A stretch of DNA of 55,268 nucleotides from Actinomycetota bacterium (GTDB taxonomy: Bacteria > Actinomycetota > Acidimicrobiia > Acidimicrobiales > RAAP-2): assembly GCA_021324045.1 (NCBI GenBank), contig JAJPJV010000041.1, forward strand, positions 1 to 55,268, read 5' to 3'. Below, piece after piece: positions 4,180 to 49,992 of the stretch. The number at the start of each line of letters is the position of its first letter. Positions within the stretch are counted from its first letter, which is position 1. Under the pieces are notes generated by a model that was given only the letters and a program-made list of their open reading frames with translations, did not search any database and was not told where the DNA came from. A program made the position numbers and the translations under genes.

Positions 4180-4571
4180 GCCGAAGTCAGCGTGTCGCGT
4201 TTCGTACGCAGGGCGCGTCCTTGCGTTCGTCGGCGCGGACTATGGTTCCTTTTCGGCTGCGCACGGGTCTGTGGTTGAAAGTCGAAGCCAGTCGCAGGCG
4301 AAACGACCCACGTAAGGCAACATCTGGTTGCTGATCATGGTGCGACTTAGATGTAAGACCTGCCTGCCTGCTTCCGATGAGCGGGAACGGGCAGCGACGA
4401 GGGGAAACGGCCGGTTGTCGCGCTGCAGGGTCACCTGACCACCGGCGCGAGGCCGTCAACCTTGCTGCAGGCGGGTGTGGGGCCAAAGACCAGGTCAGCC
4501 GTGCGCAGCCCCGGTGCTGGCCTCCGAGGACGGGCCAGGCTGGGCATCCCGACCGGTAGGATCGTGTAGTC
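4180..4571. other. Long intergenic region upstream of secA
   Basis: No gene is supported in these 392 bases. Small inverted repeats are present: ACATCT at 4320-4325 with AGATGT at 4349-4354, and a near-palindrome GGTCAccTGACC at 4429-4440. Neither matches a riboswitch or tRNA that I can recognise. The right end carries the secA promoter. The hpf gene often found upstream of secA in actinobacteria is absent here. Confidence 0.4.

Positions 4572-4572
<1 letters not shown>
4557..4572 (+). promoter_or_regulatory. Near-leaderless promoter -10 of secA
   Basis: TAGGAT at 4557-4562 is followed by 9 bases and then ATG at 4572, leaving at most about two bases of leader. No Shine-Dalgarno sequence precedes the start. 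Confidence 0.5.
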
Positions 4573-7452
<2,880 letters not shown>

Positions 7453-26876: not shown

Positions 26877-27050
26877 CTTGAGGCAGGGTCGGAATTCGCG
26901 GTTCTCACTGCCGCGGGGCGGCACGCCGAGCACCGCAGCCCCGGCGCTGGCGCGGTCGGGACCGGGATCCCAGGGCACCCGTCGCCGATTGCGATGAACA
27001 CTCTCCGTAACCAGATGGTGACCATCCGCGACATTGGTGGACCCGCGGGC

Positions 27051-27077
27051 TACCCTTCGGCGGCGGGCCTCGGCCCG
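27051..27077 (+). promoter_or_regulatory. Candidate pilA promoter with a 5'-terminal stem-loop
   Basis: TACCCT at 27051-27056 would place the transcription start near 27063. The next bases, 27064-27077, form a perfect 6-bp GC stem (CGGGCC-TC-GGCCCG) at the very 5' end of a leader of about 64 bases, which also carries GGAAAGG before the ATG. Such a hairpin could stabilise an abundant pilin mRNA. The promoter assignment is inference. Confidence 0.35.
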
Positions 27078-27126
27078 TCATGCATTGACCCATATCGGAG
27101 GACAATTCCGGAAAGGAACCACCACC

Positions 27127-27756
27127 ATGCAAGCAAGCAAGATGCCAGGGATCTTGCGCGCCGTCGCAGAATCCTTGAACCGGCGCCGTCGTGGCGGCGA
27201 GGAGGTTGCGGAGGGGGAGACCGACGCGGGGTTCACCCTCATCGAGCTCATGGTCGTGTTGCTCATCATGGCCATCCTGCTCGCGATCGCCATCCCCACC
27301 TTCCTCGGGGTGAAAGGCGGTGCCCAAGACAAGGCGGCGCAGAGCAACCTGAACACCGCGCTCACCTCGGCCAAGGCCCTCTATGCCAACAACGGGAGCT
27401 ACCTGCCCGCCACAGCGATGGTGACCACGCTGGGCTCCCAGGAGCCGGAGCTCACCTTCAGCACCGGTGCGGTCACCCCGGGCGCCAACATCTCGGTGTG
27501 GACGAGCAGCGACGGCAACGTCCTCGTGCTCGTCGCAGCCTCGCAGTCGGGGGCGTGCTGGGCGGTCGTCGACAACAGCAGCACGAGCGCCGAGACCAAC
27601 GTGGCCGGCGTGGCCTCGCTCAACCCGGGCGATTCCTACACGGGCTGGAAGGATGCCAATACCTGTAATGCCTCGGCCCTCGGAGCGGCCACGACCGGCG
27701 CGCAATACCAGGCTGGTCCTGGCTTCCCGGCGACTCCGTACACCACGGGGTACTGA
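27127..27756 (+). CDS. pilA: Type IV pilin, major-pilin candidate
   Basis: A prepilin (209 aa) with the class III signal: a 35-residue charged leader ending in DAG, then the processed N-terminus FTLIELMVVLLIMAILLAIA, with glycine at -1, phenylalanine at +1 and glutamate at +5. The hydrophobic helix continues to about residue 60 and is followed by an exposed domain with two cysteines (ACWAV and NTCNA) spaced to form a disulphide, and a Tyr-rich end. The leader is much longer than the 6-10 residues of Gram-negative PilA. It is processed by a prepilin peptidase, assembled by PilB/PilC and retracted by PilT, all encoded downstream. A strong hairpin follows. Confidence 0.92.
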   Translation: MQASKMPGILRAVAESLNRRRRGGEEVAEGETDAGFTLIELMVVLLIMAILLAIAIPTFLGVKGGAQDKAAQSNLNTALTSAKALYANNGSYLPATAMVTTLGSQEPELTFSTGAVTPGANISVWTSSDGNVLVLVAASQSGACWAVVDNSSTSAETNVAGVASLNPGDSYTGWKDANTCNASALGAATTGAQYQAGPGFPATPYTTGY

Positions 27757-29878: not shown

Positions 29879-30490
29879 CTACCCCGTGCCGGTCGTGGGC
29901 GCGCTCGTGGTGCCGTTGGTGGGCGCGCCAGTCGTCAGGATCTCGAGCGAGAAGTTCTCGTCGAGCGCCGTGGCGCGATTGGTACCGGTCCCACCACCGG
30001 TGATCCCGATCGAGCTGATGATGGTGAGCCTGGGGAGTGCGTAGAGCGCCTTGATGAAGGAGAGCATCTGGTCGTAGGTGCCCGTTGTGGTCACCGTCAC
30101 CGGGATGATGGTGACACCGCCGGAGCTCGATCCCGCGCCGGGACTCAGGCTCTGCACCTTGACGCCCGTCGCGCTCGCGGCATTGGAGATCGCGGTGACG
30201 TAATCGTAGATGTCGCTCGTCGGCGGAAGGGCGGCGTTCAGGCGTTGCTGCAAGGCTTGCAGTGCTGACGCATTGTGCGAGTAGGCCCTCAGGCGAGCGA
30301 GTTGGGCCTGGAGCTGGGCTTGCTCGAGCTGGGCTTGCTGAACCTTGGATCGGATCCCACCCAGCTTGTGGCTCTGGGGCTCGAAGAAGGCGACGACCCA
30401 CAGCAAGAGCACCGCCAAGGTGACGGTGATGACGATCATCGTCGGCCGGCTCTTCAAGGCTCGCAAGAGCCGAACGCGCTCGTCGCTCAT
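29879..30490 (-). CDS. pilO: Type IV pilus alignment protein PilO-like
   Basis: PilO pairs with PilN to link the cytoplasmic PilM ring to the outside of the membrane. The 203-residue protein has a short cytoplasmic N-terminus, one membrane segment (MIVITVTLAVLLLWVVAFF, about residues 18-36), a coiled coil with repeated LEQAQLQAQL heptads, and a ferredoxin-like domain (GGVTIIPVTVTTTGTYDQML and ALPRLTIISSIGI). The tail is Thr/Gly-rich. Its ATG overlaps the stop of the PilM-PilN gene (ATGA), indicating coupled translation of the complex. Confidence 0.85.
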   Translation of the reverse strand: MSDERVRLLRALKSRPTMIVITVTLAVLLLWVVAFFEPQSHKLGGIRSKVQQAQLEQAQLQAQLARLRAYSHNASALQALQQRLNAALPPTSDIYDYVTAISNAASATGVKVQSLSPGAGSSSGGVTIIPVTVTTTGTYDQMLSFIKALYALPRLTIISSIGITGGGTGTNRATALDENFSLEILTTGAPTNGTTSAPTTGTG

Positions 30491-32253
30491 TTCGTCGGCA
30501 CCGAGTATTCCGCGACCCGCTGGCCATGGGCGCGGCCTTCGATCTGCAGCGTGGCACCGAAGGTGACGGTGCTGCCCGAGCTGATCCCACCGCTGAGGTC
30601 GACGTTGGTGAAGATCGGCGACTGGCTCATCGACTGCCCCCAAGTCGTGACGGCCGAGAGGGTGGTGGTGATCACGGAGGTCGTGATGTTGCCGATCACC
30701 GTCGTGGGCGTCGGTGGTCCTGATCCCGACGGGTGGCCACTGCTGACGCCGGGGCTCGACCCCGACGCGCTGACGCCGGTGGTCGCGGTCATCGTGAGGT
30801 TCGACAACGTTGCCGTCGGCGGGATGTACTGACTGATCTGGTTGAGGACAACCAGCCAGTCGACCTCCTCGGTGAGCAGTGGCACGACGAGCGCGGACTG
30901 GGCCGCAACCGCGTTGCGCAGCGCGACCACCTTGTCGTACTTGGGGATGTCGACCGTCTTGATGGCGGTGTTCTGGCTGTTCAAGGTGGCGAGTTGTTGC
31001 TCTGCGTCGTGGACCTGGAGCAGGCGCCAACCGGTCAGTCCCGCCAGGACGATCCCGAGCCCCAGGGCCCCGGTGAGGACTCGGCGTCGCATGCGATCGG
31101 CCGCTGCCTGGTCGACGACGGACTGGGGCAACAGGTTGAAGGATTCGCCGTCGAGATCCGGCAACGCCAACCCGATCGCGACGGCGCCGATCGCGTCGAT
31201 CTCGCTTGCTTGCTCCGGCGTGAGCGGCAGGCGGCTGGCGTCGATCGCCGCCAAGGGAGAACCGACGACCACCTGGAGGCCGGTCTCGGAGCGCAAGCGA
31301 TCGAACAGCCCGACCGCACGCGCACCGGCTCCGGTCAGCTGGATGCGGCTGACCGGTCCGCGTCCTGGAAGAGACGAGAAAAAGCGGATCGAGCTCGAGA
31401 TCTGCTCGACGAGCTCCCCCACGGCCCGGTCGCAGGCCGAGCGAGCCCGGTCGTCGGCTGCCCCAGGAATGCCGAGCCGGTGCTTGATCAGCTCGGCGTC
31501 CATATAGGGGACGTCGAGCGCGCTCGCGATGGACCTCGTGATCGAGCCACCGCCGAGGTCGATCGTCCGGACGAACTGTAGGACCCCGTTGTCGTGCACC
31601 ACGATGGAGGTGAGTCCCGTCCCCACCGCTACCACTGCCTCGGGCTGGCCTGCGATCCTCGGGTCGCACAACGCCCGCACGAGGGCTGCCGTCGTCAGGT
31701 CGATGCTGACCAGCTCGAGCCCTGCTCCTTGCACCGCGCCGATGAGCGCGTCGATGAGCGCTTGATGCGCGCCTGCGACGAGTACCCGGAGGCGTGGGGG
31801 TTGTTCGGGTTCGGCGATCTGCCCGACGACCTTGAAGGAGAGCGCGGTCTGTTCGAACGGGAACGGCAGCACCTCGTCGGCTTGGAAGCGCACCGCGCTC
31901 TGGAGCTCGTCAGGAGGGAGGAGCGGCATCTCGACTTCACGCACGATCGCCCGCAAGCCCGCCACGCCGACGCGGACGCGTCGATCGCCGAAGCCACCCT
32001 CCCGCCACAGCCGTTGCAGGGCTTGGGACAGCTGTCCACCGTCGACGACTTCTCCGGCGTCGATCGTCCCGGGGCGCAGGCCCACCTGACCGAAGGCCTC
32101 GAGGACCGGAGGCGAGCCGGGGTGCATGCTGAGCTCGGCTGCGCGGACCGCGCTCGTACCGACATCCAATCCGATCAACCGATGTGGCGGCACCAGATCC
32201 CCGTTTGCGCTGCTCGCCGCGATCTGCGACGCAGGAAAATTTACCGGGCGCAC
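30487..32253 (-). CDS. PilM-PilN fusion protein of the type IV pilus
   Basis: One 588-residue chain carries two normally separate proteins. Residues about 24-368 are PilM, an actin/FtsA-like ATPase domain: LIGLDVGTSAVRAAEL is the phosphate-1 motif, IDLGGGSITRSIA the second phosphate motif, and LTGAGA the adenosine motif. Residues 369-588 are PilN: SFNLLPQ at 371-377 matches the N-terminal INLLP peptide by which PilN docks into PilM, followed by a membrane segment (about 391-412), a coiled coil, and a periplasm-side domain with a Gly/Ser/Pro/Thr-rich insert. The frame is continuous, with no sign of an internal stop or frameshift. The GTG at 32253 is the furthest start; a later start near residue 20 is possible. 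Confidence 0.85.
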   Translation of the reverse strand: MRPVNFPASQIAASSANGDLVPPHRLIGLDVGTSAVRAAELSMHPGSPPVLEAFGQVGLRPGTIDAGEVVDGGQLSQALQRLWREGGFGDRRVRVGVAGLRAIVREVEMPLLPPDELQSAVRFQADEVLPFPFEQTALSFKVVGQIAEPEQPPRLRVLVAGAHQALIDALIGAVQGAGLELVSIDLTTAALVRALCDPRIAGQPEAVVAVGTGLTSIVVHDNGVLQFVRTIDLGGGSITRSIASALDVPYMDAELIKHRLGIPGAADDRARSACDRAVGELVEQISSSIRFFSSLPGRGPVSRIQLTGAGARAVGLFDRLRSETGLQVVVGSPLAAIDASRLPLTPEQASEIDAIGAVAIGLALPDLDGESFNLLPQSVVDQAAADRMRRRVLTGALGLGIVLAGLTGWRLLQVHDAEQQLATLNSQNTAIKTVDIPKYDKVVALRNAVAAQSALVVPLLTEEVDWLVVLNQISQYIPPTATLSNLTMTATTGVSASGSSPGVSSGHPSGSGPPTPTTVIGNITTSVITTTLSAVTTWGQSMSQSPIFTNVDLSGGISSGSTVTFGATLQIEGRAHGQRVAEYSVPTK

Positions 32254-33255: not shown

Positions 33256-33270
33256 TATGCTCGCGCGTCG
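33256..33270 (+). promoter_or_regulatory. Leaderless promoter -10 of pilT
   Basis: TATGCT at 33256-33261, 8 bases, then GTG at 33270. Confidence 0.5.
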
Positions 33271-34367
33271 TGGACACGGCAGGCCTCGACCGGCTGCTCA
33301 AGAACCTCCAGCAGTGGGATGCCTCTGACCTCCACCTGAAGGCAGGCTCGGCTCCCCACGTCCGCATCGACGGGGATCTGAGGACCCTCAGCAACGAGCC
33401 TCAGCTCACCCCTGAGGACACGGCAGGGATTGCTCGAGCGATTCTGCCCACATGGCTTGTCGACGCTTTCGACCGGCACCACGAGGCGGACTTTGCGTAC
33501 TCGGTCCCCGGCGTGGGTCGATTCCGCGTCAACGCCTACTACCAGCGCAGCACCGTCGCGCTCGCGTTCCGCCGGGTCCGAGACGACGTACCTTCGGCGG
33601 ACGAGCTCGGGCTCCCCCAGGTCGTCTTCGAGCTTGCCAACGAACGGCGCGGCCTCGTCCTCGTCACCGGTCCAACCGGGTCCGGAAAGACGACCACCCT
33701 GGCCGCGATGATCCAACACGTGAACCGAACCAGGCCCTGTTCGATCGTGACCATCGAAGACCCGATCGAGTACCTCCACCGTGACGAGCTGGCGACCATC
33801 GCGCAGCGCGAGGTGGGGTTCGACACCGAGTCCTTCGCCAGTGCGATGCGTGTGGTCCTGCGACAAGACCCCGATGTCATCATGGTCGGGGAGATGCGGG
33901 ACACAGAAACCGCGTTCGCCGCGCTGACGGCAGCAGAGACCGGTCACCTGGTGTTCACGACGCTGCACACGATCGATGCGACCGAGACCATCACTCGGAT
34001 CATCGACCTCTTCCCCCAGTACCAGCATCGCCAGATCCGCTCGTCGCTCGCTGGATGCTTGCGAGGCACCATCGCACAACGCCTCGTTCGCCGTGCTGAT
34101 GGCGTCGGTCGGGCCGCTGCCCTCGAGGTGATGGTGGCCAACGGCCGCATTCGTCAATGCATCATGGATCCAGAGCTCACCTCTGACATCGCGAGCATCA
34201 TCGCCGAGGGTGAGTACTACGGGATGAGGACGTTCGACCAGAGCCTTGCCGAGCTGCTCGAGGCAGGAGCGATCACCTTGCAGGACGCGCTGGACGCTGC
34301 CTCCAACCCTCATGACCTGCGGGTGACCCTCGAGCGTCGAGGTCTGGTCAGGACCGGGAGCTGGTAA
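33270..34367 (+). CDS. pilT: Type IV pilus retraction ATPase PilT
   Basis: A hexameric ATPase that depolymerises pili to drive twitching motility. The 365-residue protein shows ASDLHLKAGSAPHVRIDG at residues 18-35, Walker A GPTGSGKTTT, the aspartate box TIEDPIEYLH, Walker B DPDVIMVGEMRDTET and the histidine box HLVFTTLHT, all in the normal order and spacing. The C-terminal AIRNLIRE-like retraction helix reads NGRIRQCIMDPE. Length is normal for PilT. It is the simple form, in contrast with the extended PilT-like ATPase encoded 4 kb downstream. Convergent with pilD. Confidence 0.94.
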   Translation: MDTAGLDRLLKNLQQWDASDLHLKAGSAPHVRIDGDLRTLSNEPQLTPEDTAGIARAILPTWLVDAFDRHHEADFAYSVPGVGRFRVNAYYQRSTVALAFRRVRDDVPSADELGLPQVVFELANERRGLVLVTGPTGSGKTTTLAAMIQHVNRTRPCSIVTIEDPIEYLHRDELATIAQREVGFDTESFASAMRVVLRQDPDVIMVGEMRDTETAFAALTAAETGHLVFTTLHTIDATETITRIIDLFPQYQHRQIRSSLAGCLRGTIAQRLVRRADGVGRAAALEVMVANGRIRQCIMDPELTSDIASIIAEGEYYGMRTFDQSLAELLEAGAITLQDALDAASNPHDLRVTLERRGLVRTGSW

Positions 34368-35301: not shown

Positions 35302-37680
35302 ATGAGTGAAACAACAGTGTCGGTTGCACCCCTCAACGCTCCGGGTGCTGGTCGACGGTCGGTTGCGCCGTCTTCCGGCGATCGTGGCGCGAGTGCTCCA
35401 GTGGATGGTGGCGCACGCGATCTCGCAGCGGAGCACGGTCTTCCCTTCGTCGACCTCACCCGGATGACGTTCGGGCCGGGTGCTGCGGACCTGCTGCCCG
35501 AGCCCGTGGCTCGCCGATACGGCGTCGTGCCGATGGGGAGGCGGTTGGGCACACCGGTCCTTGCGGTGTCGAATCCGTCCGATCAGTTCGCAATGGACAT
35601 GCTCCGCGCCACCCTTGGTCGCGATTTCTTGGCCGTCGTGGCGAGCAGCGAGCAGATCGCCCGCGCGCTCGACCAGCTCTACGGCTCACCGGGCTCTGGG
35701 ACGGGGAGCGCCCCCGTGTCGGAGAAGGAGGTTTTGGGGAAGAAGGGCGGCGCCGCGCCAGCCGCTGCGGGGGTGGGCCCGCAAGCGGCACGGAGCGCCG
35801 ACGCCCAGGGGCAGGGCGACCAAGCTCACGTCGACGAGCGATCGTCCGCGCAGGCCCAGCCAGGCCAGGACATCCCTGCCGTTCCCGCCGGATGGTCTAC
35901 CGCCGGTTCGGCGGATCGCAGCGCTCGACCAGGGCTTCCCGACGGGCCAAGTGGTCCCGAGACCCTGGAGGATGAGCTCCCTGAGATCATCCGTTCGGGG
36001 CCGTCCCTCGCGCGCTCGCTCGTCGCCTCGGGTCGTGTGAGCGCCGAGGCGATGGTGGCCGCGCTCCGTGCGTACCCGCAGACCGGCGAGTCGCTTGCCC
36101 GTTACCTCTTCGACAACAAAGTGGCGAAGGAGGAGGACCTGGTCTGGGCCATGGCTCAGGAGATGGGCCTCCAGTTCGTCGACCTCAACCATGCCAACAT
36201 CGATCGGGCTGCCCTCGCTCTGGTTCCGTTGGCGACCGCGACGCGCCACACGGTGTTACCCATCGGGTTCGACAACGGTATGCCCGTCATTGCCATGGCC
36301 AACCCGACCGACGTGGTGGCCATGGACGACCTTCGCTCGATCATCGGGCGGTCGTTCAAGCCCGTCGTGGCGACTCGTTCCCAGCTCCTGACCTTCACTC
36401 GCATCCTGTATCGTCCCGACGCCGAGGTGGCCGAGGTGGCCGAGGATGCCGCTGATGTCGCCGAGTCGCAGAGCGGCGGCGTCGAGATCGCCGACCTCCA
36501 GGCGGTGGTGGAGAATGCGCCGATCGTTCGCTACGTGAACCTGCTCATCATGCAGGCCTTGAACGAGCGAGCCTCGGACATCCACATCGAGCCGGCCGCG
36601 GATCGTCTTCGCATCCGCTTTCGCATCGACGGCGTCATGCACGAAACGACCTCGGCCTCGTCGGCGATCACCGCTGCGGTCGTCAGCCGGTTGAAGGTCC
36701 TCGGGGACATGGACATCGCCGAGCATCGCATTCCCCAGGAGGGCCGGGTCTCGCTGTCGATGAGCGACCGCAAGATCGACTTGCGGCTCGCGACGTTGCC
36801 GTCGACCTTCGGTGAGACGGTCGTGATGCGAATCCTCGACAAGTCCGCGAGCCTCCGCACGCTCCCGGAGCTCGGCTTCATGCCGGACACGCTCGATCGA
36901 TATGCCAAGTCCTACAAGCAGCCCTACGGCGTGATCATGGTCACCGGGCCCACTGGAGCCGGGAAGACGACAACCCTGTACGCGACGTTGGCCGAGGTCC
37001 TCACGCCGGAGAAATGCGTGGTGACCGTGGAGGACCCGGTCGAGTACCAGATCGACGGTGTCACACAGGTGCAGATCAACCCCAAGGCAGGGTTGTACTT
37101 CTCCAACGCGTTGCGGTCGATCCTTCGTGCCGACCCCGACATCGTTCTGATCGGCGAGATCCGAGATCGCGAAACGGCCACCATCGCGATGGAGGCAGCG
37201 CTCAGCGGCCACCTCGTTCTCACCACGCTGCACACGAACAACGCTTCGTCGACACCGCTGCGGCTCACCGAGATGGGCATCGAACCGTTCCTCGTGACCT
37301 CGGCCGTGGGGTCGGTTTTGACCCAGCGTCTTGCGCGGGTGCTGTGCTCGGCGTGCAAGGAGCCATACGAGGCCTCCGAGAAGGATTTCTACGCGGCGGG
37401 TTACTCCGATGCCGACATCGAGGGTCTCGAAACCAACGTGCTCTACCGTGCCGTTGGGTGCCGGACTTGTGGCCACACCGGTTACTTCGGGCGCGTTGCC
37501 CTCGCTGAGGTGATGAACGTGAGCGAGGAGATCGAGCGAATGATCATCGAACAGGCGTCGGTGGTCGACATCGAGCGCAAAGCCTGCGAGCAGGGGATGC
37601 GCACACTTCGCCAAGACGGGCTCCTCCGCGTCGTCCAAGGGACGACGACGCTCGAAGAGGTCCTGCGGGTGGTCGTATGA
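35302..37680 (+). CDS. pilB: Type IV pilus extension ATPase PilB
   Basis: A GspE/PilB ATPase (792 aa) powering pilus assembly. Two N-terminal MshEN-type domains (about 38-128 and 225-365), the second with ARSLVASGRVSAEAMVAALR and ESLARYLFDNKVAKEEDLVWAMAQ, are separated by a Gly/Ala/Pro-rich linker. MshEN domains in some relatives bind cyclic di-GMP, so control by this messenger is possible. The ATPase half has SDIHIEP, Walker A GPTGAGKT at about residue 549, the aspartate box TVEDPVEYQ, Walker B DPDIVLIGEIRDRET, the histidine box, and a zinc clip of two CxxC pairs (CSAC and CRTC). The next ATPase gene starts in its stop (ATGA). Confidence 0.95.
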   Translation: MSETTVSVAPLNAPGAGRRSVAPSSGDRGASAPVDGGARDLAAEHGLPFVDLTRMTFGPGAADLLPEPVARRYGVVPMGRRLGTPVLAVSNPSDQFAMDMLRATLGRDFLAVVASSEQIARALDQLYGSPGSGTGSAPVSEKEVLGKKGGAAPAAAGVGPQAARSADAQGQGDQAHVDERSSAQAQPGQDIPAVPAGWSTAGSADRSARPGLPDGPSGPETLEDELPEIIRSGPSLARSLVASGRVSAEAMVAALRAYPQTGESLARYLFDNKVAKEEDLVWAMAQEMGLQFVDLNHANIDRAALALVPLATATRHTVLPIGFDNGMPVIAMANPTDVVAMDDLRSIIGRSFKPVVATRSQLLTFTRILYRPDAEVAEVAEDAADVAESQSGGVEIADLQAVVENAPIVRYVNLLIMQALNERASDIHIEPAADRLRIRFRIDGVMHETTSASSAITAAVVSRLKVLGDMDIAEHRIPQEGRVSLSMSDRKIDLRLATLPSTFGETVVMRILDKSASLRTLPELGFMPDTLDRYAKSYKQPYGVIMVTGPTGAGKTTTLYATLAEVLTPEKCVVTVEDPVEYQIDGVTQVQINPKAGLYFSNALRSILRADPDIVLIGEIRDRETATIAMEAALSGHLVLTTLHTNNASSTPLRLTEMGIEPFLVTSAVGSVLTQRLARVLCSACKEPYEASEKDFYAAGYSDADIEGLETNVLYRAVGCRTCGHTGYFGRVALAEVMNVSEEIERMIIEQASVVDIERKACEQGMRTLRQDGLLRVVQGTTTLEEVLRVVV

Positions 37681-39548
37681 GCCCAACTTCGACGGTTGCC
37701 CGTACGGAGTGGTCACGGCGCTTGGCGCAAGCGCTCGCTTCGGGGGGCTTCGTGTCCGAGGACGCGATCTCCTCGCTGTTGGTCCAGTCCACCGAAGCCG
37801 ATGTGCCGCTCGCAACGGTTCTCATTCTTCGTGATCAACGGTTGGGGCCCGTCGTGCTCGAGACCCTCGGACAGCTGGCACGGCTGCCGGTCGCTGATCT
37901 TGAAGCAGAGCCGCCCGTCGAAGAGGCGCTCGATGCAGTTCCACGCGAGCTGTGGCGGGAGTATCACGCCATCCCCGTTCGCTTCAGTGGTCCGAACCTC
38001 GTCGTTGCCTTCAGCGAGCCACCCGATCCGGCCGACGTCCAAGCATTCGCCGAACGTGTCGGCATGCAGGTCGTTCCAGTGCTTGCCAATCCCTTGGTGA
38101 TCGAGGGGCTCTTTTCGACCGTGCGCACGAACGGCTCGAACCCCCCGACGGTGCCTCCTCTCCCGCTCGCCCCGCCACCACCTTCCACGTTGTGGGCGAC
38201 AGCACCGCCACCCCCGCCTTCGCCATCACCTCCACCTCCATCTCAATCGCCACCGCCACCGCCGTCGTCGCTACTGTGGGCGACCCCGCCGGCGCCGACC
38301 AGGGTGCCAGCAACCGACGTCCTGTCGTCTCCGGGGGTGTCGACACTCCCACGATCGGCTGCAGCGACGGCGGACCCCGCGTCGGCGCAGCGACCACCGG
38401 AGCCCAAGCTCGCAGCGACGGAATCACCGGCGAGGCCGGCCACAGCACGCTCGGAGCCCCAGCCCATCGCCAGGAGTGCTCCCACCCACCTCGACGACCT
38501 GCTGCGCTACGGCGTCGCGGCTCGAGCGTCAGACATCCATCTCATCGCTGGCGTTCCGCCCACGATTCGCGTCGATGGCGCGCTGCATCCAATTCCGGAC
38601 CTTCCGCCGCTCGACGCCGACAGGGTGAGAGATCTCGTCTTCGCCGTGCTGCCGCAGAGCCAACGGGAGCGGTTCGAGAGCGAGCACGAGCTCGACACCT
38701 CGCACTCGGTGGCGGACCTCGGACGATTCCGGGTCAACGTCTCCTATCAGCGAGAGAGCGTGGCGGTGGCGATCAGGCCGATCCCGCACGAGATTCCACC
38801 CTTCGACAGCCTGGGGATTCCTGACTCGGTTCGCAATTTCACCGAGCTTCGTCGAGGCCTGGTGCTCGTCACCGGCCCGACCGGGTCAGGGAAGTCGACG
38901 ACGTTGGCATCGTTGATCGACATCATCAACGAGTCCAAGCCGCTCCACATCGTCACGATCGAAGACCCCATCGAGTTCCTCCACCGGCACAAGCGATCCG
39001 TGTTGAGCCAGCGCGAGCTCGGCACGGACACCTTCTCGTTTTCCGAGGCGATCCGCCGGGCACTGCGTCAGGACCCGGACGTGATCCTGGTCGGCGAGAT
39101 GCGCGACCTCGAGACGATCGCGGTCGCGCTCACTGCCGCCGAGACCGGGCACCTCGTTTTCGCAACCCTGCACACCCAGGACGCGCCGTCGACGATCGAT
39201 CGGATCATCGACGTGTTCCCGCCGAGCCAGCAGGAGCAGATCCGGATCCAGCTCGCTTCGACCCTCCAAGGCGTCGTGACCCAGCAGTTGCTTCCACGCA
39301 GTGACGGTGGCGGTCGTTGCGTCGCCACCGAGGTCCTCGTGTGCACGCCGGGCGTCCAGAACCTGATCCGCGCGGCGAAGACCCACCAGATCTACTCGGT
39401 GATGCAGACCGGGGCGCAATTCGGCATGCAGACGATGGACCAGAGTTTGGCGTCCCTGGTGCGCCAACGACTCGTCTCTGTCGGTGTTGCCATGGATCGC
39501 TGCCGTGACGAAGAGGACTTCCGGAGCCATATCGAGGGGTTCGAATGA
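37677..39548 (+). CDS. PilT-like ATPase with N-terminal MshEN-like domain and proline-rich linker
   Basis: A composite ATPase (623 aa). Residues about 10-150 resemble the MshEN/GspE N-terminal domain found in PilB but not in ordinary PilT. Residues 155-265 form a disordered linker with long proline runs and the repeated phrase LWAT[AP]P. Residues 270-623 are a complete PilT motor: ASDIHLIAGVPPTIRVDG, Walker A GPTGSGKS at 400-407, TIEDPIEFLH, DPDVILVGEMRDLET, and HLVFATLHT. No zinc-clip cysteines are present, which argues against PilB. It is coupled by ATGA overlaps to pilB and pilC, so it may act as a second retraction or modulatory motor (PilU-like) controlled through its N-terminal domain. 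Confidence 0.85.
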   Translation: MSPTSTVARTEWSRRLAQALASGGFVSEDAISSLLVQSTEADVPLATVLILRDQRLGPVVLETLGQLARLPVADLEAEPPVEEALDAVPRELWREYHAIPVRFSGPNLVVAFSEPPDPADVQAFAERVGMQVVPVLANPLVIEGLFSTVRTNGSNPPTVPPLPLAPPPPSTLWATAPPPPPSPSPPPPSQSPPPPPSSLLWATPPAPTRVPATDVLSSPGVSTLPRSAAATADPASAQRPPEPKLAATESPARPATARSEPQPIARSAPTHLDDLLRYGVAARASDIHLIAGVPPTIRVDGALHPIPDLPPLDADRVRDLVFAVLPQSQRERFESEHELDTSHSVADLGRFRVNVSYQRESVAVAIRPIPHEIPPFDSLGIPDSVRNFTELRRGLVLVTGPTGSGKSTTLASLIDIINESKPLHIVTIEDPIEFLHRHKRSVLSQRELGTDTFSFSEAIRRALRQDPDVILVGEMRDLETIAVALTAAETGHLVFATLHTQDAPSTIDRIIDVFPPSQQEQIRIQLASTLQGVVTQQLLPRSDGGGRCVATEVLVCTPGVQNLIRAAKTHQIYSVMQTGAQFGMQTMDQSLASLVRQRLVSVGVAMDRCRDEEDFRSHIEGFE

Positions 39549-40771
39549 CGACGACGTTCGAGTACAAGGTCCGCGATCAGATGGGGAACCTTGTCGAGGG
39601 GACGCTGGTCGGCGACAGCTTGCCGATGGTCGTCGGGCATCTTCGCCGATTGGGGTACTTGCCCGTCGCCGTCACGCCCGCGCGCGGCGCGGGGCTCAAG
39701 ACCGAGGTCGTCATTCCCGGCGTCAGCGACCGCGTCAAGCCCAAAGAAGTCGCGCTCTTCGCTCGCCAGTTCGCGACCATGGTCGACTCCGGCCTGTCGA
39801 TCAACCGTGCCCTGACCGTGATCATCTCGCAGACCGAGAACAAGCACTTCGCTGCGCGGCTGCGCCAGGTCCACGATGACGTCGAGAAGGGGACGTCGCT
39901 GTCGAGAGCCCTGGCGAAGCATCCCAAGGTCTTCGACACCCTCTTCGTGTCGATGGTCGCGGCCGGAGAGGTCAGTGGAAACATCGACGTCGTCCTCAAG
40001 GAGGTCGCGGACACCCTCGAGAAGTCCGTCGAGCTCCGACGCAAGGTCCGCGGTGCCATGGCGTATCCGATCGTCGTCGTCTCGGTGATCGCCGTGATCG
40101 TCACGATCATGCTGACGGTGATCGTTCCGATCTTCAAGAAGCTCTTCGCGAGCCTGGGGGGGAAGCTGCCGTACCCGACGCGGGTCCTCATCTCGATCTC
40201 GAGCACCGTTGCCAGCTGGCGCGTGCTGATCGTCCTGCTCGTCATCGCGGGCTGCGCGATCGCCCTGAATCGCTGGATCCGGACCGACGCAGGGCGTCAC
40301 GCCTGGGACATGCTCAAGCTGCGGCTACCGATCTTTGGTGCCCTCTCGCACAAGACGGCACTCAGTCGCCTCACCGCCACGCTCTCGTCGCTTCTCAGTG
40401 CGGGGGTTCCTGCACTGGAGGCACTCGAGATCGTCAGCCGCACCAGTGGGAACGCGATCGTCTCCGACGCCGTGCTCGAGATCCGCCAGCGCGTGCGCGA
40501 GGGCAGCTCGTTCTCGGAGCCGATGCGGAACGCGCCCAGCGTCTTCCCGCCACTGGTGGTGCAGATGACCGAGGTAGGCGAACAGACCGGGGCACTGGAC
40601 GACATGTTGAAGAGGGTCTCGGCCTTCTACGGGGGAGAGGTGGAGCAAACGGTGAACAACCTGACCTCGATCCTCGAACCGGTGCTGATCGTCATCATGG
40701 GCGTGGTGATCGGGGCCATCATCATCAGCCTCTACCTCCCGATGTTCGACTACATCAAGCTCGTGCACTGA
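39545..40771 (+). CDS. pilC: Type IV pilus inner-membrane platform protein PilC
   Basis: The membrane platform on which PilB and PilT act. The 408-residue protein begins TTTFEYKVRDQMGN, a normal PilC N-terminus, and has two homologous GspF domains. Each starts with a ...FARQFATMVDSGLSI or SRLTATLSSLLSAGVP phrase, the first followed by VFDTLFVSMVAAGE, the second by VFPPLVVQMTEVGE. Three membrane segments are visible, the last closing the protein (VLIVIMGVVIGAIIISLYLPMF). The ATG overlaps the preceding ATPase stop, placing pilB, the hybrid ATPase and pilC in one transcription unit. Confidence 0.95.
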   Translation: MTTTFEYKVRDQMGNLVEGTLVGDSLPMVVGHLRRLGYLPVAVTPARGAGLKTEVVIPGVSDRVKPKEVALFARQFATMVDSGLSINRALTVIISQTENKHFAARLRQVHDDVEKGTSLSRALAKHPKVFDTLFVSMVAAGEVSGNIDVVLKEVADTLEKSVELRRKVRGAMAYPIVVVSVIAVIVTIMLTVIVPIFKKLFASLGGKLPYPTRVLISISSTVASWRVLIVLLVIAGCAIALNRWIRTDAGRHAWDMLKLRLPIFGALSHKTALSRLTATLSSLLSAGVPALEALEIVSRTSGNAIVSDAVLEIRQRVREGSSFSEPMRNAPSVFPPLVVQMTEVGEQTGALDDMLKRVSAFYGGEVEQTVNNLTSILEPVLIVIMGVVIGAIIISLYLPMFDYIKLVH

Positions 40772-43879: not shown

Positions 43880-45870
43880 TGGCGCCGCTTGATCGCCTTG
43901 AACGCCTGACGGACCTGGTGCTGGTCCTCCTCAACACCTCGCGACCGCTCACCCTCGAGGAGCTCGCGCGAGACGTCCCTGGCTACCCCGAGACGCGCGA
44001 TGCGCGGCGCCAGGCCTTCGAGCGGGATAAGCGGTTGCTGCGGGAGGAGGGCATTCCGATCGCCACGACCCCGGTCGAGGGACCAGAGCAGTATGGCTAC
44101 TGGATCGATCCCGAGGCCTTCTACCTCCCAGACCTTGCACTGACTCCCGAGGAGCAAGCAGCACTGCATCTCGCCGTTGCCGGCGTTCATCTCGGCGATC
44201 CTAGCGGTCGTGATGCGCTCCTGAAGTTGGGTGCGAGTGGTCTGGCGGAGACGCAACCGCTGGCCTTGTTCTCCCCGCCAGCGGCGCTCGCAGCGCTCTT
44301 CGAGGCCATTCGGGAGCGCTGCACCGCCGAGTTCAGCTACCGGGAACAACGGCGCTTCACGACGCCGGCTCGGCTGTGGTTCGGTCGAGGGCATTGGTAC
44401 CTGATCGCGTGGGACCACGATCGTGGTGCGGCCCGCACCTTTCGCGTCGATCGGATCGGTGGGATCCCGACGATCGGCGAACCAGGGAGCGGGATCCTCC
44501 CCCAGGGTTTCGATCCGGAGAAAGAGGCTCCCGAAGAGCCGTGGCGAGTTGTCAGCGCCGCAGACGAGGCCGAAGTGTGGTTGCTCGTCGACGCCATCGA
44601 GGCGAATCGGGTGATCGCAGAGGTCGGCGAGCAGGCGTTGCAAGCGCGTCACGAGGATGGGTCGGTGTTGCTTCGGCTCGGGATCACGAGCCTGGAGGCG
44701 ATGCGCTCATGGGTGCTCGGCTTGCTCGATCACGCGGAGGTCACGGCTCCGGCTTCGATCCGATCGGTGATCATCGACTGGCTCGAGGCCATCGCCGCCG
44801 GTGAGCCCCCTCCTGGCGCGCCCGCAGGGCACCTCGACCCCGCCGTCAACCCCGCACCCACCGAGCCCCGAGGGCGATCGCGAGCCGATGACATGGACCT
44901 GGGTGGGCCCCGTGGCCAGCGGCGAGATGCGCGTCAGCGGCTCCGCCGATTGCTGGCAATCGTCGGTTGGCTCGCCAGAGCCGGTCGGGCCCAAATTCCC
45001 GAGGTCGCGCAGCGGTTCGGACTCTCCGAGAGAGAGCTCGTGTCCGAGCTCGAGCTGGCTGCCTGCTGCGGGTTGCCGCCGTATACCCCGGACGCGCTGA
45101 TGGAGATCGTGATCACCGGCGAGACCGTGGAAGCGTCGCTCCCGGAGGGACTGGCGCGACCTCGCCGGCTGACGGCCGCCGAAGGGCTTGCCCTAGCGAC
45201 TGCCGCTCGGACGATCCTCGCGGTTCCGGGTGCCGATGCCAATGGTGACCTCGCCCGTGCCCTCGACAAGCTTGAAGCGGCGCTGGGTGCCCGACGCGGG
45301 TTGGTGATCGATCTCAACAACCCTCCGATGCTCGGGGCGGTGCGGCGCGCCTGCGAGGAGGGGTCGGTGGTCGAGATCGAGTATCACTCCGCTTCCAGCG
45401 ACGAGGTCACCCAACGGGTGGTAGAGCCGTACAAGGTGATCTCGCTCGAAGGGCGCTGGTACCTCGATGCGTACTGTCACCGGGCACAGGCGACGCGACG
45501 TTTCCGGGTCGACCGTATTCGCGATGTGAACGTCGTTGAGGGCCAGGCGCGCGTGAGCGGAGACGTCGCGACGCCGCGCTCAGACGACGTCTTGGCGACC
45601 GAGGCCTTCGTTCCCGGACCTGGCGCCACGACGGTGCGCCTCGTGGTCGACCGGACGGCGTCGTGGTTGCTCGAAGCGGTACCTGTGCTCGAGGTTGCCC
45701 AGCGAGGCGAGCACTTCGAGGCCGTCCTGGCGGTCGGTGGCGTCGCGTGGTTGGAGCGCACGCTGCTCCAGGCGGGGGCAGGAGCCCGCGTTGTCGATCC
45801 TCCCGAGTGGAGAAGGATCGGCCCCCGCGCAGCTCGGCGGATTCTCGCCAAGTACCGCGACCGTTCTTGA
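43879..45870 (+). CDS. pafBC: Fused PafB-PafC WYL-domain transcriptional regulator
   Basis: PafBC is the LexA-independent DNA-damage activator of actinobacteria, encoded as two proteins in mycobacteria and as one fusion in some other lineages. This 663-residue chain holds two homologous halves. Each has an N-terminal winged helix-turn-helix (residues 5-60 and about 360-410), a WYL domain (the first around ARLWFGRGHWYLIAWDHDRGAARTFRVDRI-like sequence, the second around EPYKVISLEGRWYLDAYCH with RRFRVDRIRDV), and a WCX domain. A Pro/Gly linker joins the halves near residue 325. A TACGCT box 7 bases before the GTG indicates a leaderless mRNA. The relaxase gene starts one base after the stop. Confidence 0.88.
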   Translation: MAPLDRLERLTDLVLVLLNTSRPLTLEELARDVPGYPETRDARRQAFERDKRLLREEGIPIATTPVEGPEQYGYWIDPEAFYLPDLALTPEEQAALHLAVAGVHLGDPSGRDALLKLGASGLAETQPLALFSPPAALAALFEAIRERCTAEFSYREQRRFTTPARLWFGRGHWYLIAWDHDRGAARTFRVDRIGGIPTIGEPGSGILPQGFDPEKEAPEEPWRVVSAADEAEVWLLVDAIEANRVIAEVGEQALQARHEDGSVLLRLGITSLEAMRSWVLGLLDHAEVTAPASIRSVIIDWLEAIAAGEPPPGAPAGHLDPAVNPAPTEPRGRSRADDMDLGGPRGQRRDARQRLRRLLAIVGWLARAGRAQIPEVAQRFGLSERELVSELELAACCGLPPYTPDALMEIVITGETVEASLPEGLARPRRLTAAEGLALATAARTILAVPGADANGDLARALDKLEAALGARRGLVIDLNNPPMLGAVRRACEEGSVVEIEYHSASSDEVTQRVVEPYKVISLEGRWYLDAYCHRAQATRRFRVDRIRDVNVVEGQARVSGDVATPRSDDVLATEAFVPGPGATTVRLVVDRTASWLLEAVPVLEVAQRGEHFEAVLAVGGVAWLERTLLQAGAGARVVDPPEWRRIGPRAARRILAKYRDRS

Positions 45871-45871
45871 C

Positions 45872-47281
45872 GTGCTTGGCGTGAGCCGCGTGAGGGACGG
45901 CACGGGGAGGTATTACCTCGCCGGTCTCGACACCGATGTTCCTCTCGGGGGTCCGCAACCCGACGCCGTCGGCGGATGGTGGGTGGGCACTGGCGCGTTC
46001 GCGCTCGGGCTCCACGGGCGGATCCGCGCCGGATCCTTCCAAGCGGTCCTCGAGGGGCGGAACCCGTCGTCTCGGTGTTCCTTGGCCCTTCGACGGGGGG
46101 CGAGCGTGATGGGCTACGACCTGACGTTCAGCGCCCCCAAGGGGGTCAGCGCACTTTTTGCCCTCGGTCAAGCGAGCATGGCCGACCAGGTGCTCGAAGC
46201 TCATCATCAAGCTGTCCGAGCTGCGACCTCCTACATCGAACGTTTTGCCGCCGCGGTCCGCCGCGGGCCGAGCGACGACGTCCGCGTGGTCCGCACCGAC
46301 GGTCTGATCGGTGCGGCGTTCACACACTTCGCGAGTCGAGCATCGGACCCACATCTCCATACCCATGTGGTGCTCGCGAACCTGGCCCACGGAGAGGACC
46401 GCTGGTCGGCACTCGATGGTCGTGGGCTGTTCGCGCATGCCGCTGCCGCCGGCGAGCTCTACGAAGCGCACCTCCGCCACGGGTTGGCGAGCTCCTCGTC
46501 CATCGAGTGGGAGCGAGGGCGCCAGGGTCGGCCCCAGATCGCCGGGCTCGATCCCGTGGTGATCGGAATCTTCTCGAACCGCTCGGCAGAGATTCGCATG
46601 CACCTCGACGAGCGGGGTCTCCGCTCGCGGCGAGCACGCCGCATCGCCTGGGCGACAACGCGCGACCCGGCGGTCGCTGGGCCTGGCGTTGCCGAGCTGC
46701 GCATGTGCTGGGCCGAGCGCGCCAGGCGGCACGGGGTCGGGCCCCTGGAGCTTCGATGGGGTAGCGATCGGGGCCATCCATTGCCACGAGGGCTCGACGA
46801 GCATCGCTTCGCAGCGGAGCTCTACCGGAGCCCGCACGGCGTGCGCCGGCGTGATGTGATCCGGGCATGGAGTCGATCCCTCCTGCAGGGCGCCCCAGCT
46901 CGGGAGATCCAAGGCGCGGTCGAGCACTGGCTCCCTGGCGTCGAAGGGATCGGCGTTGCGGAACCGCTTTCGGCGATCGGACCATTGATCCCGGGGAGTC
47001 ACCTCCTTCGGGCTCTCGGCCCGCGTCCGCTGCAAGCCGCTCAACAACCGCTCTGGCGAGCCGGGGCCGAGGCGATCGAGGCATACCGGTCGCGTTGGGG
47101 GATCGGCGTGCGCGATCCGTTGCTCGATCTCGCTGATCGACGACCCCTCAGGGATCTGCCCGCGCGGCAGGTTGCTGACCACCTCACGCTGTGCCGTCAC
47201 CTTGGTGAGCTGCGCGCCCAACTCGGCAGAGCGCGAGATCCGACCACTGGCCGGGGCGGCCTGGAGCTCGGTCATCGATGA
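45872..47281 (+). CDS. MobF/TrwC-type relaxase without helicase domain
   Basis: A conjugative relaxase-like protein (469 aa) expected to nick one strand at an origin of transfer and stay bound to the 5' end. Near the N-terminus GRYYL supplies the catalytic tyrosine pair (residues 14-15); YDLTFSAPKGVSALFAL is the signature of the TrwC family; and DPHLHTHVVLANL holds the three metal-binding histidines (161, 163 and 165). The TraI/TrwC helicase half is absent: the protein stops after an Arg/Pro-rich region. The GTG at 45872 is one base past the pafBC stop and fits the family N-terminus; the frame remains open upstream only in antiframe of pafBC. It overlaps the T4CP gene tail to tail. Confidence 0.82.
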   Translation: MLGVSRVRDGTGRYYLAGLDTDVPLGGPQPDAVGGWWVGTGAFALGLHGRIRAGSFQAVLEGRNPSSRCSLALRRGASVMGYDLTFSAPKGVSALFALGQASMADQVLEAHHQAVRAATSYIERFAAAVRRGPSDDVRVVRTDGLIGAAFTHFASRASDPHLHTHVVLANLAHGEDRWSALDGRGLFAHAAAAGELYEAHLRHGLASSSSIEWERGRQGRPQIAGLDPVVIGIFSNRSAEIRMHLDERGLRSRRARRIAWATTRDPAVAGPGVAELRMCWAERARRHGVGPLELRWGSDRGHPLPRGLDEHRFAAELYRSPHGVRRRDVIRAWSRSLLQGAPAREIQGAVEHWLPGVEGIGVAEPLSAIGPLIPGSHLLRALGPRPLQAAQQPLWRAGAEAIEAYRSRWGIGVRDPLLDLADRRPLRDLPARQVADHLTLCRHLGELRAQLGRARDPTTGRGGLELGHR

Positions 47282-48756
47282 TCCGTTCGCTCCAGCCAGT
47301 GGGCCCTCGTCTCCCGGGACTGCCCCCCAGGGTGCAGCGCATGATCGAGTGATCGCACCGGTTCACGGTCGCTGACGAGCTCTCGCCACGGGGAGAAGGC
47401 ATACGACGGTGTGAGTTGCACCCACCCGATTTGATTCCGAGCATCGATCGCAAGGGCCATCCCGGACCGACCCCGCGCGACGACGTCGACCGGCAATCGC
47501 GGCCGGAAGATCGAAGAGGTGCTGACTGACCCGTGAAGCCGTCTGTCGGGTCCTTGTGCGGTCGCGACTGTTCGCGACAGGAGCTCGGCCTCACCTGCCA
47601 ACAACGACACCGTGCGCAGCGTCGGCAGATCGGCGATCCCTCCGAGGACCATCGTGGAGCCGAACAACGACAGGAAGCTCTCTGCTTCCCGGCCCCACCG
47701 ATTCCGGGCCTGCGAGAGATCTTGAAGGCAAGCCAGGGTCAGCAATCCCTGCCCGGCACCTTCGCTGACGATCGCTGGTAGGTCGGGAAGGGGCGCGATG
47801 TTCGCGACTTCGTCCAGCGCGAACAGCACCGGAGGGTTGGTCGTCGCTTCGAGCGCTCGCCTGTAGGCGGCGTCACGGACGTCGGAGAGGATGCCGACGA
47901 TCAATGGAGCGAACAGCTGCTGGTGACGCCCCGCGGCACAGATGTACAACGTGTGGGGCCCGCTGCAGAAGGATTCGGTGTCCAAGAACGGAGGCTCCGT
48001 CGAAGCCAGAGCGGAGACGGATCGATACGCGGCGAGCACGCCGGATGCCGTCGACCAGATGCTGGATTGCTCGCGCTCCTCTGTGGTGAGGATGCCTGCC
48101 AGCACGTCGGTGGCCGGCTGGCGATCCCCGATCTTGTTGGTCAGCACGTCGAGCGCGCTGGTGCCCTCGTGGCGATCGACCCACGAAAGGACCGTGCGCA
48201 TCGATTGGCCCGAGAGCGCCGCAGCATGCAACAAGGGGGCGAGCAATGCGGCGGCCCGCTCGCTCCAGTGGTCCGTCGTCGCGGGCGTCCATGATCCGCC
48301 GCCGCTGTGCGTGGCGCGCACCATGGCATGAGCAACTCCGAGGGCACCGTCCCAGGCGCGGCTCGCGTTGACGGGAGACCATCCGACTCGCAGTGCCTGG
48401 GAGGTCTCCTCGACGGTGCCGCTCGGATCGTAGAGGAGCGTCCAGCCGCGGCGCGCACGCGCCCGAGCCGTGGCCATGAGGACGTCTGGCTTCGTCGAGG
48501 TACTGACGACCGCTCCGTCAGCTGCGAGCACGTTGGGGATGACGATGGAGGACGTCTTTCCAGAGCGCGACGGTCCGAGGATCAAGGTGGAACGTTCTGG
48601 ACCTGACCAGGCCCAACCGCCATCGCCGAGTCCCAGGTAAATACCCCTTTTCCCGTTGCCTGGCATCTCCGTCACGTCCTTTGGGACCCATCGTCGTTCT
48701 CGGGCATTCGGATCGCTTGCCGAGCGTCCGAAGCGATGTCGGGCATGCGCCAACAT
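47272..48756 (-). CDS. VirD4/TraG-like type IV coupling ATPase without membrane anchor
   Basis: A conjugation coupling-protein homologue that would bring relaxosome DNA to a secretion channel. Walker A is ILGPSRSGKTSSIVIPNVL and Walker B is PVLFALDEVANIAPLP; VSTSTKPDVL after Walker A and QDLSQARNRWG are also typical of the VirD4 group. No N-terminal transmembrane segments are seen. The start is uncertain: a TTG at 48807, the ATG at 48756 chosen here, and an ATG at 48666 with AAAGGA upstream are all possible. Its last 10 bases overlap those of the convergent relaxase. No pilus or channel genes of a type IV secretion system are in the window, so transfer competence is unproven. Confidence 0.8.
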   Translation of the reverse strand: MLAHARHRFGRSASDPNARERRWVPKDVTEMPGNGKRGIYLGLGDGGWAWSGPERSTLILGPSRSGKTSSIVIPNVLAADGAVVSTSTKPDVLMATARARARRGWTLLYDPSGTVEETSQALRVGWSPVNASRAWDGALGVAHAMVRATHSGGGSWTPATTDHWSERAAALLAPLLHAAALSGQSMRTVLSWVDRHEGTSALDVLTNKIGDRQPATDVLAGILTTEEREQSSIWSTASGVLAAYRSVSALASTEPPFLDTESFCSGPHTLYICAAGRHQQLFAPLIVGILSDVRDAAYRRALEATTNPPVLFALDEVANIAPLPDLPAIVSEGAGQGLLTLACLQDLSQARNRWGREAESFLSLFGSTMVLGGIADLPTLRTVSLLAGEAELLSRTVATAQGPDRRLHGSVSTSSIFRPRLPVDVVARGRSGMALAIDARNQIGWVQLTPSYAFSPWRELVSDREPVRSLDHALHPGGQSRETRAHWLERTDHR

Positions 48757-49299
48757 TGCGGTCGTCGCGACACAGAAGGGTCTTGGCCATCGGCGGTCGG
48801 CGTGCAAACGGCCTCCAACGCTCGACCACCGGCCCCCTTCGAAAGCTCACGATCGTCGCCGACGGGGTGATCGTCGCCAAGTCAACGCGGACGGGTCGCG
48901 CCTCGTGCGCGCCAGATGCTCGGTGGTGCGCGCACGCCGACGCAACGATCTGCCGACCACAGTTAGTGGTAGTTGAGTGCCGCATTATGCAGCTGATGAT
49001 CGAACCGTCATCGCTACGGGCGTCGATCGAAGAGCATGAGGTCGGGTAGGTGAGCAACACATGGTGCTCGTTGCTATGTTGCATTACTGGGTATCCACAT
49101 CGTTGTGCAACATGGAGAGTATCTTTTGGCGGCATGCACGCACGGTTGTGGACGAGCGTGCAGCCACCAAGACGTAATGCGTCATTGGGGTGATCAAGCA
49201 ATAGCCGGTGCAGCAATGCGGAAGCCGGAGTTCGTCGGTCTCCGGTGCCTCGCAGGCTTCACCTACAACCAAAGTTGAAGTTCAAAGGGAGGTGCACCT
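48757..49299. other. Gene-poor region with nested inverted repeats
   Basis: No gene is supported. The stretch has several inverted repeats: GAGCA/TGCTC (49052-49056 and 49065-49069), AGCAAC/GTTGCT (49053-49058 and 49070-49075), and ATGTTGCA/TGCAACAT (49076-49083 and 49106-49113, 22 bases apart). It is less GC-rich than its flanks. It could contain the promoters of the coupling-ATPase and histone-like genes, an operator, or an origin of transfer. At the right end AGGGAGGTG is a very strong ribosome-binding site for the next gene. Confidence 0.4.
49052..49113. repeat. Cluster of three inverted repeats, candidate oriT or operator
   Basis: Within 62 bases there are three perfect inverted repeats of 5, 6 and 8 bp sharing the word GCAAC or its complement. 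Inverted repeats flank nick sites in many origins of transfer, and a relaxase and coupling protein are encoded nearby, but no known nic sequence is recognised. Confidence 0.35.
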
Positions 49300-49992
49300 G
49301 TGGCGCCAGCCGCAAACAAGCGGGCCCCGGCAAGGAAGACCGCCAAGCGGGCCCCGGCAAGGAAGACCGCCGCTCGGAGGAGCACGGCACGAGCGACGGC
49401 TCGAAAGAGCACCGCGCGGCGGGTGGTTGCGAGAAAGAGCACGGCGCGTAAAGCGACGGCTCGAAAGAGCACAGTTCGGAAGCGGACAACAACCCGAGTC
49501 GGCGCTCGCAAGACGACGGCTCGCAAGACGACCGCCCGCAAGGCCCCGGCGCGCAAGCGGACGACGAAGAAGGCCGCGGCTCGCAAGACGACGGCTCGTA
49601 AGACGACCGCTCGCAAGACGACCGCTCGCAAGACGACCGCTCGCAAGACGACGGCCCGCAAGGCCCCGGCGCACAAGCGGACGACGAAGAAGGCCGCGGC
49701 TCGTAAGACGACCGCTCGCAAGACGACCGCCCGCAAGACGACGGCCCGCAAGGCCCCGGCGCGCAAGCGGACGACGAAGAAGGCCGCGGCTCGTAAGACG
49801 ACCGCTCGCAAGACGACCGCCCGCAAGACGACCGCCCGCAAGGCCCCGGCGCGCAAGCGGACGACGAAGAAGGCCGCGCCGACAAAAGCCCCCGCGCGCA
49901 AACGAGTCGTCAAGAAGGCACCAGCACCAGCACCGGCACCAGTACCGGCCGTGGAGGAGACTCCTCCGCCGATCTCCGATATGCCGTTCTGA
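49300..49992 (+). CDS. Histone H1-like repeat protein (KTTARK repeats)
   Basis: A 230-residue, extremely basic protein made almost wholly of five-residue RKTTA-type repeats, interrupted by a KAPARKRTTKKAAA module that recurs four times. It resembles the lysine/arginine-alanine tail of mycobacterial HupB and eukaryotic H1, so binding and compaction of DNA is the probable role. No HU core is present here or directly upstream. A Pro/Ala hinge leads to a C-terminal VEETPPPISDMPF, whose acidic, Pro-Phe ending resembles an SSB tip. The GTG start has the strong Shine-Dalgarno AGGGAGGTG, so it is probably highly expressed. Confidence 0.85.
   Translation: MAPAANKRAPARKTAKRAPARKTAARRSTARATARKSTARRVVARKSTARKATARKSTVRKRTTTRVGARKTTARKTTARKAPARKRTTKKAAARKTTARKTTARKTTARKTTARKTTARKAPAHKRTTKKAAARKTTARKTTARKTTARKAPARKRTTKKAAARKTTARKTTARKTTARKAPARKRTTKKAAPTKAPARKRVVKKAPAPAPAPVPAVEETPPPISDMPF
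49495..49880 (+). repeat. Tandem DNA repeats inside the histone-like gene
   Basis: A 15-bp unit (CGCAAGACGACCGCT and variants) is repeated many times and nested in a larger unit that starts with AAGGCCCCGGCGCGCAAGCG. Copies of the larger unit begin at 49540, 49660, 49750 and 49840, so periods are 120, 90 and 90 bp; the first is two 15-mers longer. Such near-identical arrays expand and contract by slippage or recombination. Confidence 0.85.

Follow-up and report, generated by a model that had tools for sequence, protein, structure and literature searches.

Several bacteria are already described as carrying PilM and PilN in one protein. A PilM-PilN fusion is reported for the type IV pilus (T4P) of C. 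difficile (PMC6916266, citing Melville and Craig 2013), and pilM and pilN are stated to be fused in most of the T4P clusters of Campylobacterota (PMC11870540). In the type II secretion system (T2SS), PulL is said to correspond to PilM and PilN fused (PMC10191384), and GspL is likewise called a PilM-PilN fusion by structure (PMC4471445, PMC3815138). The arrangement has also been engineered in a chimera of P. aeruginosa PilM with PilN(1-12) (5EOU; PMC5805733). Regarding function, the PilMNO proteins of monoderms are argued to act in assembly (PMC6916266), and PilM-PilN interactions are said to modulate the association of PilB and PilT (PMC5424180). The original prediction for the locus described here held that PilM and PilN are separate proteins in characterised systems, which is incorrect in light of C. 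difficile, most Campylobacterota and the PulL/GspL proteins. A search of the open-licence literature returned no paper linking Acidimicrobi- with PilM. The Acidimicrobiia fusion is real and conserved, and PilM-PilN fusion as such has already been reported in other bacteria.

The window, that is, the whole stretch of DNA analysed, comprises 55,268 nucleotides from a member of the Acidimicrobiales (class Acidimicrobiia). A type IVa set lies together within it (PilB, PilC, PilT, PilM, PilN, PilO and a pilin), PilB and PilC scoring below their equivalog cut-offs:

27034-27756, plus strand: pilin-like protein (N_methyl PF07963, 31.3 bits, cut-off 21.2)
29879-30490, minus strand: pilO (PF04350, 53.2 bits, cut-off 22), overlapping the pilMN stop
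30487-32253, minus strand: fused pilMN gene of 588 codons, with the GTG at 32193 (568 aa) as its probable start
33270-34367, plus strand: PilT/PilU-family ATPase (TIGR01420, 441 bits, cut-off 319.1)
35302-37680, plus strand: PilB-type extension ATPase with MshEN domains (TIGR02538, 608 bits, just below the cut-off of 675.65; PF00437, PF05157)
37677-39548, plus strand: another PilT/PilU-family ATPase, long at its N-terminus (TIGR01420, 475.1 bits)
39545-40771, plus strand: PilC platform protein (PF00482, 229.6 bits; NF052607, 382 bits, below the cut-off of 700)

The continuous 588-codon PilM-PilN frame of the original prediction was borne out at 30487-32253, with a GTG start and no internal stop; the prediction gave no strand, which is the minus one. 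Its TGA stop overlaps the ATG of pilO (ATGA). The true start is probably the GTG at 32193, which yields a protein of 568 aa and ~59 kDa. This assignment draws on the starts of relatives, on a GGGG just upstream, and on the first 19 residues of the 588-codon reading, which are disordered or of low confidence in the AlphaFold2 model. The N-terminal part of the second PilT-family ATPase, whose gene sits beside that of PilB, is proline-rich. Secretin (PF00263) gave no matches at E≤0.001 in the 96%-complete window genome, in a search whose control was positive in 6 of 14. Given the pilus gene cluster and this absence of a detected secretin, the system is a monoderm-type IVa pilus, and the earlier wording of an "alignment complex" does not fit it. 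The C. difficile pilus resembles it as reported, being a monoderm type IVa pilus with PilM and PilN in one protein. By the description in PMC6916266, the PilN of monoderms may use another, C-terminal motif, whereas the Acidimicrobiia fusion keeps NLLP. Compared likewise by description, the Campylobacterota clusters share the single pilM-pilN gene followed by pilO (PMC11870540), but these are diderms with pilP and pilQ.

The product of pilMN is organized as follows:

31162-32172, minus strand: PilM (actin-like) domain, residues 28-364 (PF11104; AlphaFold2 model compared with 2YCH)
31141-31161, minus strand: linker, residues 365-371 (sequence poorly conserved; length of 7-10 before the motif in relatives)
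31123-31143, minus strand: docking motif SFNLLPQ at the N-terminus of PilN, residues 371-377 (Leu374 conserved in 34/34)
31018-31089, minus strand: putative transmembrane segment, residues ~389-412 (alignment to relatives)
30538-30864, minus strand: extracytoplasmic ferredoxin-like (PilN) domain, residues ~464-572 (structure comparison)

The first half is beyond doubt PilM. It exceeded the cut-offs of both PF11104 (126.2 bits, cut-off 27) and TIGR01175 (pilM; 163.5 bits, cut-off 133), and the AlphaFold2 PilM domain superposed on 2YCH with a Z of 38.9 and an rmsd of 2.5 Å over 330 residues. The second half fared unevenly in the same kind of search, which had been suggested along with the original prediction. 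PF05137 (PilN) reached 13 bits on the window protein, below its cut-off of 22.8, so a plain Pfam scan would miss this half. A profile that we built from the 26 separate (freestanding) PilN of Acidimicrobiia matched it from the docking motif onward with 64.9 bits (E 2.5e-19; residues 373-545, profile 2-153). This profile also matched 36 of the 37 fused proteins found in the class and none of 185 shuffled tails; the sole protein missed (L062) is broken by a frameshift, and two matches were weak (L049, 15.6 bits; L061, 18.1 bits). PF05137 itself matches 24 of the 34 aligned fused proteins at E≤0.01, and up to E 1 the PilN half of pilMN is the only PilN-like match in the window genome.

Folded alone, the PilN half consists of a long helix and a ferredoxin-like domain. 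The latter compared best with PulL (5HL8, Z 11.4), XcpY (5N7L, 11.1) and EpsL (2W7V, 11.0), followed by PilO (2RJZ, 10.2) and Thermus PilN (4BHQ, 8.0); Foldseek alone gave no match for the half at E≤0.001. In the AlphaFold2 model a helix spans residues 377-461 and begins with the putative transmembrane segment, which we placed by the most hydrophobic 19-residue stretch of relatives, another stretch scoring higher in the window protein. The second half thus reads, in order, NLLP motif, membrane helix (inferred from relatives), coiled coil and ferredoxin-like domain, with pilO adjoining. Its identity as PilN follows from the class PilN profile, the PF05137 matches in fused relatives and the fold of the isolated half.

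The original prediction had placed SFNLLPQ at the junction, at residues 371-377, and this position proved exact. The distance from the end of the PilM domain to the motif is 7-10 residues in all 36 fused proteins measured (8 in 27 of them and 7 in the window protein). These lengths came from a motif pattern search, the window value being set by hand because the pattern caught PDLDG, not FNLLP. The same pattern also went wrong on a row of the outgroup (L084) and failed to pick up 12 of 57 separate PilN; the profile search recovered all 26 of the class. The information per column is 3.25 bits for the motif, 2.89 for the PilM domain, 1.85 for the linker and 1.36 for the 12 residues after the motif. 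Leu374, the first leucine of the motif, occurs in every one of the 34 aligned fused proteins; it is one of 12 invariant columns and one of the four within the PilN half. The motif proline is retained in 23 of 36 fused proteins, compared to 26 of 26 freestanding PilN (p 3e-4, a value that ignores relatedness); the tree of the fused clade implies four or more losses. NLLP is changed to NLLG or similar in the other 13 (for example L021, L026, L030, L057 and L064). On sequence grounds, then, the docking motif is kept yet relaxed after fusion, and the proline losses suggest that docking may matter less in some fused members.

The whole-chain AlphaFold2 model has a pLDDT of 86 overall and of 92 at residues 371-380. 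When the PilN half was folded without PilM, the motif block reached only 56. Residues 24-377 superposed on chain B of 5EOU with an rmsd of 2.9 Å (346 of 352 residues), the motif taking the same position as in the chimera. The likeness to this chimera extends to the order of PilM, short linker and NLLP, and the alignment through the junction scored 98.1 bits; 5EOU is, however, hand-made, ends at PilN residue 12, and has 10 residues from GLAL to INLLP, compared to 7 in the window protein. The model lies closer to PilN-bound 2YCH (2.5 Å) than to the PilN-free PilM structures 5EOX, 5EOY and 5EQ6 (4.7-4.8 Å). Considering that the FtsA structures 7Q6I and 7Q6F, which lack PilN, also fit the model (2.4-2.9 Å), the PilN-bound conformation is suggestive only. 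Docking in cis, with the motif in the PilM groove of the same chain, is the likeliest arrangement in this model, and the fixed linker length, the motif conservation and the superposition on 5EOU support it. The intramolecular docking of the original prediction is therefore plausible, as a reading of a single-chain model from a program that probably saw 5EOU and 2YCH in training.

The motif might instead enter the groove of a neighbouring chain, so that PilMN subunits are chained as a ring. PilM-PilN rings have been proposed in work on M. xanthus (PMC8389850), and our model covered the monomer only. We consider such docking in trans unlikely in view of a linker of just 7-10 residues throughout the fused proteins and of a confident motif placement in the monomer that superposes on the 5EOU chain. 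Far less probable still is that the protein is the GspL of a type II secretion system. The extracytoplasmic fold does fit the GspL family best, PulL, XcpY and EpsL all scoring above Thermus PilN; the domain order is the same, and the pilO product also weakly matches GspM-type models. Against this stand a PilM-type sequence above the TIGR01175 cut-off, two PilT-family ATPases beside pilMN, the lack of a detected secretin in the genome, and a tree in which pilMN falls among Actinomycetota PilM with separate pilN. The T2SS model PF05134 (T2SSL) matched one of the 34 fused proteins (E 0.0044), and this was not the window protein, for which none was listed up to E 10 (HMMER filters drop most matches above 0.1). 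We thus rejected GspL identity on the profiles, PilT and the secretin search, the best fit of the extracytoplasmic fold to GspL notwithstanding. Functionally, PilMN is the T4P counterpart of GspL/PulL.

A last alternative is an assembly error, or a chain that is cut or started internally to give two proteins. The window genome is a draft of 52 contigs, and cutting of the chain after translation would be invisible in DNA. However, the fusion is common to 37 genomes, one of them complete by its title and in a single contig (IMCC26256, L123), which rules out the sequencing error at the junction that the original prediction had raised as a possible flaw. An internal start or stop had been raised as well: there is no stop, and no internal start preceded by a Shine-Dalgarno-like word is conserved across the 37 fused genes. 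Between 8 residues before and 22 after the PilM domain end, an in-frame ATG, GTG or TTG is absent in 12 of the 37, and in this stretch a Shine-Dalgarno-like word precedes such a codon in L002 alone, at a site past the motif. An internal start giving a separate PilN was rejected accordingly, and an assembly error or a product divided into two proteins is very improbable. With a single frame, the PilM:PilN ratio in the fusion is 1:1.

A survey of Acidimicrobiia had been proposed along with the original prediction, and in it the fusion recurred. PilM was present in 64 of 198 genomes of the class, and 63 of these genes could be placed (37 fused and 26 separate). The gene of one genome was omitted (G062), its PilM being split across two contigs (L060, L065) with an end that looks separate. 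Two genes were scored as fused by hand (L049, which runs off its contig, and L062, with the frameshift inside PilM); the window itself is L001, and one alignment row (L063) is truncated at the N-terminus. When 31 separate genes from other parts of the phylum were added to the 63, the tree grouped the 37 fused genes in a single clade (SH-aLRT 98), which requires one change of state. The clade received 100/99 in a careful tree of 79 rows including 32 fused genes, from which 5 fused rows that were long or partial and 10 outgroup rows that were redundant had been omitted, and 94 in a tree of 84 rows. Two long branches, L011 and L061, join each other in the tree with all 37. The fusion apparently arose once within Acidimicrobiia and has been conserved since. 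A fused gene of unusual length, L061 (G040:C37, frame 3743-6695, minus, in its locus), encodes 984 aa, its PilM and PilN parts lying several hundred residues further apart, and the PilN profile matches it weakly at residues 796-940. Contigs titled as a Bifidobacterium breve MAG (L125, L136) encode the Acidimicrobiia-type fused gene; these titles are probably wrong.

The setting of the gene is shared as well. A PilO-type ORF lies near it in 36 of the 37 fused loci, as found with an iterated PilO profile that matches PilN too; L049 ends at a contig edge and L061 is weak. The PilT family is over cut-off in 34 of the 37 fused genomes, and in the other three the matches are truncated or weak; PilMN in its fused form therefore serves pili that retract. 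In the order of the window, 82 of 248 genomes match PilM, 78 of them over the cut-off. By frame length alone, 72 of the 78 have a frame of at least 541 aa, the domains having been checked for some of these genomes. In the remaining six the gene is truncated by the end of its contig; three of them have the motif in frame, one has PilN in frame, and two break off inside PilM. PilM is absent from all 12 other genomes listed of the window's own family, and the system is therefore patchy. One genome of the order (G575) holds both a fused gene (L162) and a separate pilM-pilN pair (L154). Fission back to separate genes was considered for this pair; a foreign or contaminating copy is likelier, as L154 groups, on a long branch, with unfused PilM from a different family of Actinomycetota (f70; SH-aLRT 95).

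Outside Acidimicrobiia, none of the 39 Actinomycetota loci examined carried a PilN fusion; these were the 30 best-scoring loci and the 9 with the longest frames among those listed, in a phylum sample with PilM in 240 of 396 genomes. Some frames are long for other reasons, namely inserts inside PilM in one family (f66) and N-terminal extensions in another (f83) and in L104, and none of these is a PilN fusion. The f66 insert (L096-L101) is of low complexity and covers ~70-100 residues near profile position 240. A gene from Patescibacteria (L152) was left out, as its translation points to an actin-like protein, with an FtsZ-like gene nearby. Because relatives within the phylum keep the two genes separate, we infer that the Acidimicrobiia fusion is independent of those of C. 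difficile and Campylobacterota. The Amuc_1101 family model NF045709 (Akkermansia, 608 positions) matches the window protein across the junction (protein 25-477, model 6-461) and matches 34 of 34 fused proteins. The window protein is not a member of that family (95.1 bits against a cut-off of 650), and the match across the junction suggests a further PilM-PilN fusion in Akkermansia.

Taken together, PilM and PilN of this type IVa pilus are encoded as one polypeptide, which is probably docked in cis, held at 1:1 and tied to the membrane, with the PilB and PilT motors working on a PilMN-PilO platform. The chain runs from a cytoplasmic actin-like PilM through a linker of 7 residues, the docking motif, one membrane helix and a coiled coil to an extracytoplasmic ferredoxin-like domain that would pair with PilO. 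Docking of the motif into its own PilM groove would keep PilM and PilN in equal number and would tie PilM to the membrane, and both motors would still act on the platform. A further possibility, which we put forward tentatively and regard as rather doubtful, is that the short covalent tether keeps PilM permanently bound to PilN and that motors are exchanged without PilM releasing PilN. If so, release of PilN would not be a general requirement for the switch between extension and retraction, PilT being retained in most fused genomes, and the motif relaxation in some members would show docking to be partly redundant. As fused systems retain PilT, motors can be exchanged without a PilN that comes free as a protein of its own. 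Fused systems limit, and do not refute, models in which PilN leaves PilM for retraction, since a tethered motif may undock. An apparently single and stable fusion in one monoderm class, with close relatives that keep the genes separate, offers a clean natural comparison for the PilM-PilN contact.

Two other frames of the window, judged by their translations alone, resemble a conjugative relaxase (45695-47281, plus) and a coupling protein of the TraG/VirD4 type (47272-48807, minus). A third, at 49300-49992 (plus), is similar to histone H1 tails in its high content of lysine, alanine and arginine and its KTTARK-type repeats.
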